Below are positions 27,870 to 32,787 of a DNA stretch of 64,000 nt, in pieces (within the stretch, counting starts at the first letter, position 1; every line of letters starts with the position of its first letter). Source of the DNA: Lutjanus erythropterus (lineage: Eukaryota; Chordata; Actinopteri; Lutjaniformes; Lutjanidae); assembly GCA_020091685.1 (NCBI GenBank), contig CM034591.1, positions 13,918,043 through 13,982,042 of the forward strand, read 5' to 3'. Below the pieces are notes generated by a model that saw only the letters and a program-made list of their open reading frames with translations, searched no databases and had not been told where the DNA came from. A program made the position numbers and the translations under genes.

Positions 27870-30800
27870 ATGGATCTGATCTCTGAGTGTGAACGGACCG
27901 TGATGACTCCTGTAGGTTTGGACGACATAGTGGCAGACCTGGTCTCCATGTCCCCGAACGCCACCGCGGTGGGATCACCGGGCATCACCGTGGCAACCAG
28001 AACCCTCATACTGATCGTCTGTCTGCTGCTGGTGGCCTGGAGCCACACAGATAAGAAAACTGTACCAGGTAGGTTTGACACTTTGCACTTTATTACTTTT
28101 CTGTTGCTTTAACTCAATTTCAGTTCTGCAGAAAAACACATTTATTGTCCTTCACCGCCGCAGGCCCTTCTTTCTGTCTGGGTCTGGGGCCACTTCTGTC
28201 CTATCTGAGATTCCTGTGGACTGGCATCGGCACAGCCAGCAATTACTACAACAACAAGTATGGAGACATCGTCAGAGTCTGGATCAATGGAGAGGAAACA
28301 CTCATACTCAGCAGGTTGGTTTTCTTTGTTAATGCTGATGAATTAACAGGGTTGCCGCACCTTTTCCAAAGTCAAATTCAAGAAGTTTAAAGGTGCATTT
28401 TCAAGCTTTTCCAGCACCTCACAACTGCGGTAAATTACATATTTATATACGTACACTCAAACTGATTATTTCACTTCTTCATCACATTAAATCAGATGTT
28501 ATTTTGCTATAAGGAGACACAGTTATGGTGTCACTTATCACATCCGATACGAAAATGCCTGAGTGAACATCTGCTTTTCAGATAAAGATGTAAAATATGT
28601 CAAACTATTCAGTTAGAGAGTGATTTATTAGAAAAGTAATGTTTCAGTTTCAAGCACTTCTCAAATTTTGAAAACACAGAATTCAAATTCAAGTGTTGTC
28701 AAGGATTTCAAGCACCTGTATGAACCCTGATAAAGTTACAGTCAATTCAAGCATGCAAGTGTAAATTGATCTTTTTATTTTTTTCTGTTTTTGTTGTTTT
28801 TTACCATAAGGGCCTCGGCGGTGCACCATGTACTGAAAAATGGACATTATACTTCACGTTTTGGGAGCAAGCCGGGCCTCAGCTGCATCGGCATGAATGA
28901 GAGAGGCATCATATTTAATAACAATGTGACTCTGTGGAAAAAAATACGCGCCTATTTCACCAAAGGTAACATTTTCACCTTTCCTCAGCCTGATCGATCC
29001 ACTTATTTAGTGGTTTCAGACACTGAATATCCTGTTTTCAGCCCTGACAGGTCCAGGCCTGCAGCAGACGATGGAGGTCTGCGTCTCCTCCACACAGACT
29101 CACCTGGACGACCTGGACAGCTTGCATCACGTGGACGTCCTCAGTTTGCTGCGCTGCACCGTGGTCGACATCTCCAACAGACTCTTCCTGGGTGTGGCTG
29201 TGAATGGTGAGTAGGCGCAAATAAATCTCTTAAAGGGACAGTTCACCACATTTCTGCCTTCTCTCCAATATAATCAAAGGAGATGGCACTCGGCTTGTGG
29301 TGCTGAAAGTAGGGATCCACCGGTATTAGTTTCTGTTATTTGGCAAAGCATAAATAACAAGATGGAAACAGATATTTTCTCTGCCTGAAGTTGCGCCTTA
29401 TTATTTAGGAAAAAATTCTGAAATGTAACACAGTAATGTTACTTTTATCTAAGTGCACTTTTTCCAGTGTGTTATCTAATAATTACAGACACAGAGACGA
29501 ATAGTTTGTTTGATTGCACAGATACAGATACAGATACAGATATCGGCGTCACAAAAAAAAACAACTCAACAGTAATGCCTCTTTCTAAAAATCATGCCCT
29601 GGGCACTGTTGTGAGCTGTTTCGTGTAGGAACTATTTTCTTTCTAAAGGAAAATTTGGGGTTAAATTGTTCCTTTACGCAGTGAATTTATCTTCCTAACT
29701 CTCTGTCCAGAGAAAGAGCTGCTGCTGAAGATTCAGAAGTACTTTGACACGTGGCAGACGGTGCTGATCAAACCAGACATTTACTTCAAGTTCAGCTGGA
29801 TTCACCAGAGACACAAGACAGCAGCGTGAGTCACTCTGTCATTTTATCATTCATATTATCAGGATTATTCATACATAAGCCCACCTTTAAGTTTTTTTTT
29901 AAATCAATATACATATTATATGCTATAATTGTCCATGCAGTATCATAAGTAATCATTGTATATGTTAAAAACACCGTGATGTTCCATTACTAAAGCACAT
30001 ATTCTTTCAAATGCATGGAGATGCAGTACACTTTACTGACAACAGCATTATTTTAGATGCAATAATATGTACTTGACTTTACTTAACACTACTGAATTAC
30101 TGAATTGACTATTATAGAATATTATGAGTCCTTACTATAGTTGATTGTTGAGGTGAGTTTGCGTTGTCATACTGTATTATAAGCCCCACCAGTGAGCGTC
30201 TAGTTAATGTCAAGAGCATCCAAAGACATTTAAGCTTCTATAATAATAATAATATGTAATAATACATAGCGCATCAGAAAGCATTATGTGTGTGTTGTCA
30301 AAAAGCATTATGAATGCATTATACTTCACTATCAATATCCCCATAACACACTATATCTGTTATCTCACAGCCAGGAGCTGCAGGACGCCATAGAGAGTCT
30401 TGTAGAGCAGAAGAGGAGAGAAGTGGAGCAGGCGGATAAACTGGACAACATCAACTTCACTGCAGAGCTCATATTCGCTCAGGTGAGTCTGAGAATTCAA
30501 TCGCTGCTGTTTGTTTTTGCAGATACTCAAAATTTCAACTGAAAGTCTTTTGTCCTTTTTGTAATTTTTCAATCCCTTTCAGCGCTTCGTCAAACCCCAA
30601 ATCCAATCTTGTAACGATGAAATACAATATTTTTCTGCCAGTCATTTTATTCATATTTCTGTGTGTGTGTGTGTGTGTGTGTTTTCAGAACCACGGCGAG
30701 CTGTCTGCAGAGAACGTGAGGCAGTGTGTGTTGGAGATGGTGATCGCAGCACCAGACACTCTGTCCATCAGCCTCTTCTTCATGCTGCTGCTCCTCAAAC

Positions 30801-32787
30801 AGAATCCAGATGTGGAGCTGCAGCTGCTGCAGGAGATAGACACAGTTGTAGGCAAGTATCTACAAGACTTAAGAGGATAGTTCAGATTTTTTTGAATTGG
30901 GGTTATGAATTAGTTTTCCATTGTCAGTGTAATACCTACAGTAGATGGCCCCAATTTGGAGAAGCAGAGAGGTAGGAGGCTGAACAATGAACTGCTGTTG
31001 CAGGGACATATTTTAATCATCATCAGTTTAAGTGTACGCTATATTTAGAATATTTTCACCACTTTACTTTGCTGTCAGACAGACTTCTCTGACAGGAAAC
31101 TGCAGTATTAGCCAAATAGGAGCCAAATATCGCTAGTTATCATTAGTTTATTTGTGTTATTGTGTGACTTTGGTGTTTTTAAAGGCTAGTTCGGATTTTC
31201 ACAGACTAACACAAACAAACCAACTGGTCAAGACAGTGGTAGACCAACAACTCCGTGTTTTGCAAGGTAAAATTAGTGTGTTTGCCAATGGAGTCTGGAG
31301 GCTTTGGAAAGAGCAATATTTGGCTCATATAACAGTGGTTTCCAGTCTGAAAAGGCTGTCTGACAGCAAAGTCAAGTGGAGAAAATATACTAAATATAAC
31401 ATACACCTAAATTGACACTGATTTGTTTTTAGGTTGGCTTTTTTTTAGGAGGCTAAAATATGTTTTGCTGCTGATCCTGTCCACAGCAGCTCATTGGTTA
31501 GATGCTGCCACTTCTGCAAACTGGGAGCATGCCAACATTCATCTTCTGTAGGAAATACACTGACTATGGATAAGTAGCTCATACAGCCCCGCTTGAAAAA
31601 TCTGAATTATCCCTTTAAAGACACTGTCAATGATAAAATGTAGTAGAGATTAAGGGCTCTACTTGTGCACTCAGTTCCCAGTTTATTAGGTACAGTGCAC
31701 CTTGCTAAAACTAATGCAGTCTGATACAAGAGTCCCTCCTAAATCATATTATAAAGTTCAGGTTCTGTCGTTGCTTTAGAGAATACAGTTCAACACGAGT
31801 GATGTCTCATTGTCACTGTCTTTCTTTAGGTGAGAGACAGCTGCAGAACGGGGATCTTCCGAAGCTGCAGCTGCTGGAGAGCTTCGTCAACGAATGCTTG
31901 CGGTTCCACCCTGTGGTGGACTTCACCATGCGCCGGGCCCTCTCTGATGACATCATAGACGGCTACAGGGTGCCAAAGGGGACAAACATCATTCTGAACA
32001 CCGGCCACATGCACCGGACGGAGTTCTTCCTCAAGCCAAATGAATTTAGTCTGGAAAACTTTGAAAAAAATGTAAGTAGATGTTTATTTTTTGGCCAGGT
32101 TGAGGTTTTGTTTGCAACTGTGGGACTCTAAAGTATCAGATAAAATAACATAAAGAGAATAAATTAACTCTTAAAAACCCCAAACACATTTTTTTTACAC
32201 TTATCCTCTTACTAGGGGCAATGGGAGCCTCCAAAAACAAACAATTTTCTGCCAAAGTTAGAACAATTTATGATATTTCACATGAGAGATTTCTGCATTA
32301 CTATTTACTTTCTTGCTTGTCTTACTGGTTTGAAGTGGGCGGGGCTTGGCTGAAAAAAGTGATGTCACAAATGTCTGTGCATCGGATTTAGCGACATTTG
32401 AATGAGAATCAAACTACACTAGCACAGTTCTGAGCATCAAACTTTTCTTTCTTTAAGTCATGAATACTTACGTTATAGATAAATGTTTTTCAGGAGATTT
32501 AACAGCCTCTCTCCTCTGTCCTCCCTCAGGCTCCTCGCCGTTACTTCCAGCCGTTCGGTTCAGGCCCTCGCGCCTGTGTTGGTAAGCACGTCGCCATGGT
32601 GATGATGAAAGCCATCCTGGTAACGTTGCTGTCTCAGTACTCAGTCTGCCCCCACGAGGGCCTGACCCTGGACCGCCTCCCCCAGACCAACAACCTCTCC
32701 CAGCAGCCTGTCGAGCACCAGCAGGAAGCCGAACATCTCAGCATGACATTCTTACCCAGACAGAGAGGCAACTGGAAAACACTCTGA
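27870..32787 (+). CDS. cyp19a1a: Ovarian aromatase, cytochrome P450 19A1 (A-type), complete coding region, 9 exons
   Basis: Exons 27870-28068, 28164-28314, 28811-28965, 29042-29206, 29711-29825, 30371-30482, 30689-30851, 31830-32071 and 32530-32787 make 1560 nt (519 aa plus TGA), in frame. Aromatase converts C19 androgens to oestrogens in the ER with P450 reductase, and its level steers ovarian differentiation in fish. Visible marks are an N-terminal membrane helix (about 43-59), a sequon NAT (30-32), [13 protein letters not shown], the I-helix with AAPDT (319-323), ExxR as ECLR (375-378), and the haem loop [12 protein letters not shown] with Cys450. The C terminus is RQRGNWKTL. The N terminus [16 protein letters not shown] is the gonadal rather than brain paralogue type. 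Intron 7 has a GC donor; all others are GT-AG. Length equals the family norm and all key residues are present, so it should be functional. Confidence 0.97.
30689..30851 (+). CDS. cyp19a1a: cyp19a1a exon 7 (I-helix) with unusual splice sites on both sides
   Basis: This 163-nt exon encodes [18 protein letters not shown] then the I-helix signature AAPDT and a leucine-rich helix. It is preceded by (TG)11 TTTT CAG (30660-30688) and ends GTA G before a gcaagt donor (30852-30857). The next exon starts GT GAG AGA, giving Gly-Glu-Arg as expected for aromatase, so the GC donor is required. Skipping would shift the frame and remove the oxygen-activating Thr. Confidence 0.93.
30870..31619. mobile_element. 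Palindromic MITE in cyp19a1a intron 7 (copy 2 of family A)
   Basis: It begins 'taagaggatagttcagattt' and ends 'aaatctgaattatcccttta', an inverted terminus. Internal landmarks 'tacagtagatggc', 'gctgtcagacag' and the reverse complement 'ctgtctgacagcaaag' mirror about the centre. Other copies lie at 2142-2983 and 57879-58733. It starts 18 bp after the exon 7 donor. No ORF of a transposase is present. Confidence 0.85.
32530..32787 (+). CDS. cyp19a1a: cyp19a1a last coding exon with the haem-binding loop
   Basis: 86 codons including TGA. It starts [20 protein letters not shown] (axial Cys450), then [18 protein letters not shown], and ends QRGNWKTL. Confidence 0.96.

Follow-up and report, generated by a model that had tools for sequence, protein, structure and literature searches.

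Does a TG microsatellite that runs directly into a 3' splice site place an exon of fish aromatase under CFTR-like control, or is it simply how that exon is spliced? The question is raised by cyp19a1a in a 64-kb window of Lutjanus erythropterus DNA (contig C1; by the window we mean the whole stretch analysed), where the joined gene model gives a coding region of nine exons and 519 aa at 27870-32787 of the plus strand, to which all coordinates refer unless stated otherwise. Sequence, tandem repeat scan and gene model agree on the acceptor of exon 7 (30660-30688), which is composed of (TG)11 (30660-30681), TTTT (30682-30685) and CAG (30686-30688) and precedes the 163-nt I-helix exon (30689-30851), with its AAPDT codons at 30746-30760. 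The initial annotation had identified this gene, exon, motif and exon length and had described (TG)11 TTTT CAG with little pyrimidine tract; the sequence, the gene model and the alignment to human aromatase bear it out, the 22 bases ahead of the CAG having a pyrimidine fraction of 0.59, which is the lowest of the eight cyp19a1a acceptors jointly with exon 4, and a longest pyrimidine run of 4. With good confidence, we regard the TG run as a microsatellite that stands in for a pyrimidine tract; the acceptor itself would be in normal use, and further exons of this genome show the same arrangement.

Support for this reading comes from the 937.6-Mb assembly (444 contigs), in which (TG)10TTTTCAG has 67 matches and the reversed pattern 8. 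The surrounding locus was scanned for each of the 67 (30 + 37), and at five or more sites other than cyp19a1a coding homology was found to start at the AG: gtf2a2 (TG27, E 1.5e-15), myo7a (TG22, E 2.4e-25), a CUB-domain exon (TG30, E 4.4e-16), psmb7 (TG11, E 1.8e-20) and tpcn3 (E 4.1e-16), the last with at least 11 TG units, since its run enters an N stretch that hides both the true TG length and the upstream AC content. In psmb7, the acceptor of the 116-nt exon (L059:1528-1643) is (TG)11TTTTCAG, letter for letter that of cyp19a1a, and the length of this exon means that its skipping would break the frame of a proteasome subunit. Since the same genome begins exons of other genes in this way, and psmb7 identically, the exon 7 acceptor is likely to be a splice site of an ordinary kind for fish. 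The confirmed exons are a minimum, given that Pfam was searched for 20 of the other 65 loci, which hold 66 sites, with one frame per locus, chosen by eye, and PDB sequences for five of those 20. Twelve frames gave no Pfam match at 0.05, the L026 frame had none among PDB sequences, and weak Pfam matches to spectrin (0.017, L020), MRVI1 (0.005, L036), a coiled coil (0.0011, L037) and DUF6292 (0.028, L056) were left uncounted. Open frames past the 66 other TG sites had a median of 41.5 codons, compared with 27 past 190 TTTCAG and 26.5 past 526 TTTCAH sites of the same loci (Mann-Whitney, 1.5e-5 and 2.3e-6, respectively), although N stretches and CA repeats count as open here and may have lengthened some frames.

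The layout of intron 6 (30483-30688; 206 nt, GT...AG) is consistent with use of the annotated AG. The only strict branch points are two yUnAy candidates with their A at 30649 and 30653, 39 and 35 nt from the AG end, and both lie downstream of three upstream AGs (30521-30641, ending at 30522, 30582 and 30641) that the gene model leaves unused. Because the sole strict branch points are placed for it, the exon 7 acceptor is probably used in spite of the stronger AGs upstream, none of which (0/3) would be in frame when the run is (TG)11. The (TG)11 microsatellite would thus sit between branch point and AG, tolerated and possibly assisted as a stand-in for the polypyrimidine tract; U2AF may be served by the few pyrimidines ahead of the run together with the terminal TTTTC, or be helped by UG-binding factors. 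Exon 7 would be included constitutively, and TG length would have little effect within its usual range.

The other end of the exon is also atypical, a feature that is absent from the initial annotation. Intron 7 (30852-31829; 978 nt, TTGTAG|GCAAGT ... CTTTAG, placed in the gene model by frame and homology) opens with a GC donor at 30852-30853, and its GC start, otherwise strong donor context (AG|GCAAGT) and AG end are those of the GC-AG class. Such introns make up 0.8% of those in human and mouse protein-coding genes (PMC7242645), have weaker sites, and occur in host genes that are likelier to be alternatively spliced (PMC7242645, PMC2490688). A barramundi primer for reverse transcription quantitative PCR equals the exon 7/8 join at 20 of 21 bases when compared by eye, and the primer pair to which it belongs amplified from male and female gonads alike (PMC6143260), a point in favour of the ordinary reading. 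We treat the GC donor as separate from the TG acceptor.

Several observations, however, weigh against so plain a reading of the site. By approximate splice-site matrices, exon 7 has the weakest of the eight acceptors in cyp19a1a, at 5.9 with 6.2 as the next lowest, and the weakest of the eight donors, its GC donor scoring 4.9 and the next 5.4. The AGs ending at 30522, 30582 and 30641 all outscore the annotated acceptor, and in such a setting mis-splicing could occur. In cyp19a1b (L002), the presumed paralogue, which is 83% identical to cyp19a1a across exon 7, the counterpart exon follows a T-rich acceptor and ends at a GT donor, so the weak splice signals are not required for the enzyme. The excess of 67 over 8 has the reversed pattern as its sole control, and the confirmed exon-opening sites amount to at least 6 of 67, cyp19a1a included, the remainder being neither confirmed nor excluded. 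Finally, exon use in cyp19a1a and in the comparison genes is something that we infer from coding homology.

The alternative that fares best, which we hold as tentative and which overlaps with an ordinary acceptor, is that the GT run is a fish intronic enhancer recruiting UG-binding factors that promote acceptor use. In 2004, Yeo et al. reportedly found GT and AC repeats to be splicing enhancers in fish. That TG runs are followed by TTTTCAG far more often than the reversed pattern occurs would fit such a role, but the excess could also reflect mutation in UG- or pyrimidine-rich sequence, free of any function. The window itself adds a second case, with 14 TG runs of at least 8 units (9 on the plus strand, 5 on the minus strand), of which two of the nine plus-strand runs abut an acceptor, at cyp19a1a exon 7 and at an inferred exon beginning at 7787; with 12-30 acceptors assumed on the plus strand, chance would place at least two of the nine runs in this way with P 8e-5 to 5e-4, a post hoc figure for the plus strand only. 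Near human splice sites, UG repeats of at least 12 units are enriched (PMC12276007).

The initial annotation had gone further and likened the tract to that of human CFTR, with TDP-43 controlling exon skipping. On such a model, U2AF is kept off the acceptor by TDP-43 bound to the UG run, some transcripts skip exon 7 and longer TG alleles give less aromatase, which we consider improbable. The likeness in letters stands, as the 11 TG units, about the minimum for such a tract, run straight into a few T and the AG, and (TG)11T4 is close to the TG11-T5 minigene of CFTR that skips exon 9 (PMC12171016); binding of the exon 7 UG run by TDP-43 is plausible from the sequence, and both splice sites of the exon are weak. 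The frameshift predicted for exon 7 loss is also upheld by computation, translation ending after 341 residues at nt 129 of exon 8, where the stop lies 113 nt upstream of the exon 8/9 junction. A stop at this distance ahead of the last coding junction is expected to trigger mRNA decay. What finds no support is control of skipping by the tract. For CFTR exon 9 to be skipped from the TG11-T5 acceptor, TDP-43 has to bind the UG run and hnRNP A1 a GGGGAAU element within the exon, and skipping is abolished when that element is deleted or strongly mutated (PMC12171016), whereas a string search of exon 7 found no GGGGAA, TAGGG or GGGA; a TAGG straddles the exon end and the GC donor. That the psmb7 exon has the identical acceptor lowers the likelihood of CFTR-like control, and TG runs longer than that of cyp19a1a open the gtf2a2, myo7a and CUB-domain exons. 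Because such acceptors precede the psmb7 and gtf2a2 exons, a CFTR-like tract alone would seem not to be evidence of regulated skipping in fish.

As an analogy from another species, aberrant splicing of cyp19a1 does occur in a fish, the barramundi. Its testes lack full-length cyp19a1, exons 1 and 2 being shortened and exon 3 occasionally lost, while variants with retained introns (mostly introns 3 and 2) are found in both sexes (PMC6143260). The sex-specific changes thus concern exons 1-3, which speaks against CFTR-like repression of exon 7, and "exon 7" is absent from that paper's text (PMC6143260). Among the titles and abstract openings listed from an open-licence library, none concerned a cyp19a1a TG tract or exon 7 skipping, which is weak evidence of absence.

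A broader proposal, which we rate as very improbable, holds that exon 7 is poised by the (TG)11T4 acceptor together with the GC donor, that the quantity of full-length enzyme depends on TG length, and that TG alleles could shift oestrogen and with it sex ratio. As part of this proposal, (TG)11 would lie one repeat under two thresholds, namely the 12 G of the poly(UG) (pUG) fold and an in-frame acceptor at 30582; since (TG)12 reaches both, a one-repeat change could alter structure as well as coding outcome. Given that exon 7 is weak at both ends and that (TG)12 crosses these two thresholds, TG-length-dependent splicing of exon 7 is possible, and if TG length does alter aromatase splicing, oestrogen synthesis in a fish would be under a control that is simple and mutates fast.

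The acceptor at 30582 might alternatively be leaky, that is, sometimes used with addition of 106 nt, which we judge highly doubtful. It scores 7.8 against the 5.9 of the annotated site and leaves an intron of 100 nt, but that intron would have no strict branch point upstream of its AG. The 106-nt extension was rejected as a coding variant with (TG)11, as it breaks the frame; with (TG)12 the extension is 108 nt, equal to 36 extra aromatase residues, and it is open to the normal stop with either (TG)12 or (TG)9.

Lin et al. reportedly described, in 2016, a class of fish introns in which (AC)n at the 5' end pairs with (GT)n at the 3' end. That such an AC/GT bridge, with (AC)n near the 5' splice site pairing with (TG)n, replaces U2AF2 in cyp19a1a intron 6 is scarcely credible, for although the TG run lies at the fitting 3' end, and (AC)n of at least 5 units occurs within 1.5 kb upstream at 9 of the 67 TG sites, including an (AC)11 run 1240 nt upstream of the psmb7 exon (L059), no (AC)n of 4 or more units exists on the plus strand across 27870-32787, and the model fails for want of the AC partner.

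The remaining exons of cyp19a1a in the gene model are exons 1 (27870-28068), 2 (28164-28314), 3 (28811-28965), 4 (29042-29206), 5 (29711-29825), 6 (30371-30482), 8 (31830-32071) and 9 (32530-32787). The exon joins are supported by the product, which matches human aromatase across residues 29-512 (E 1.2e-177). As regards allele variation, the assembly shows one full match, and a search of viral_contigs for relatives of exons 7-9 returned 69 pattern matches and no true relatives.

Elsewhere in the window, the second TG acceptor, (TG)27TCAG, and its putative exon (7787-7914; the whole at 7729-7914) rest on weak, WD40-like homology (Pfam 0.0041, below the cut-off), next to a frame at 8563-8838 with a stronger WD40 match (1.1e-9); the intron that follows begins gt(AC)n (feature region 7729-7980), and the gene is presumably dmxl2. 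Between it and cyp19a1a lies a minus-strand frame with an olfactomedin domain (13117-13647; Pfam 5.7e-44), which we take to be gldn. CAG likewise follows a third TG run of the plus strand (40244-40298), for which nothing indicates an acceptor role; the open frame at 40193-40657, which has a (TG)27 run and CAG ahead, gave a sub-threshold match to the BED zinc finger (0.0017), and we presume that it may be of hAT-type transposon origin. On the minus strand, an open frame of 676 aa (42430-44460) with a repetitive, coiled-coil look overlies tandem repeats of period 84.

Set beside known systems, the exon 7 acceptor resembles CFTR intron 8 and exon 9 in its letters, with 11 TG units, a short T run at the AG, and an exon whose skipping destroys the product. 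It differs in that the tract ends in T4CAG, compared with T5 and AACAG in the CFTR minigene (PMC12171016), and in that exon 7 lacks GGGGAA and has a GC donor, while skipping is known only for CFTR. With the pUG fold, a left-handed quadruplex of 12 UG repeats (PMC12276007), it shares a pure UG run, but its 11 G fall one short of the 12 required. The GT and AC elements and AC-GT bridged introns of fish share with it a TG run that abuts the AG and recurs in the genome, and differ in the AC partner that intron 6 lacks. Intron 7, in turn, has the AG|GCAAGT donor of GC-AG introns and departs from them in the TG acceptor that lies across the same exon, so that exon 7 combines two non-standard splice sites and is of interest for RNA data.

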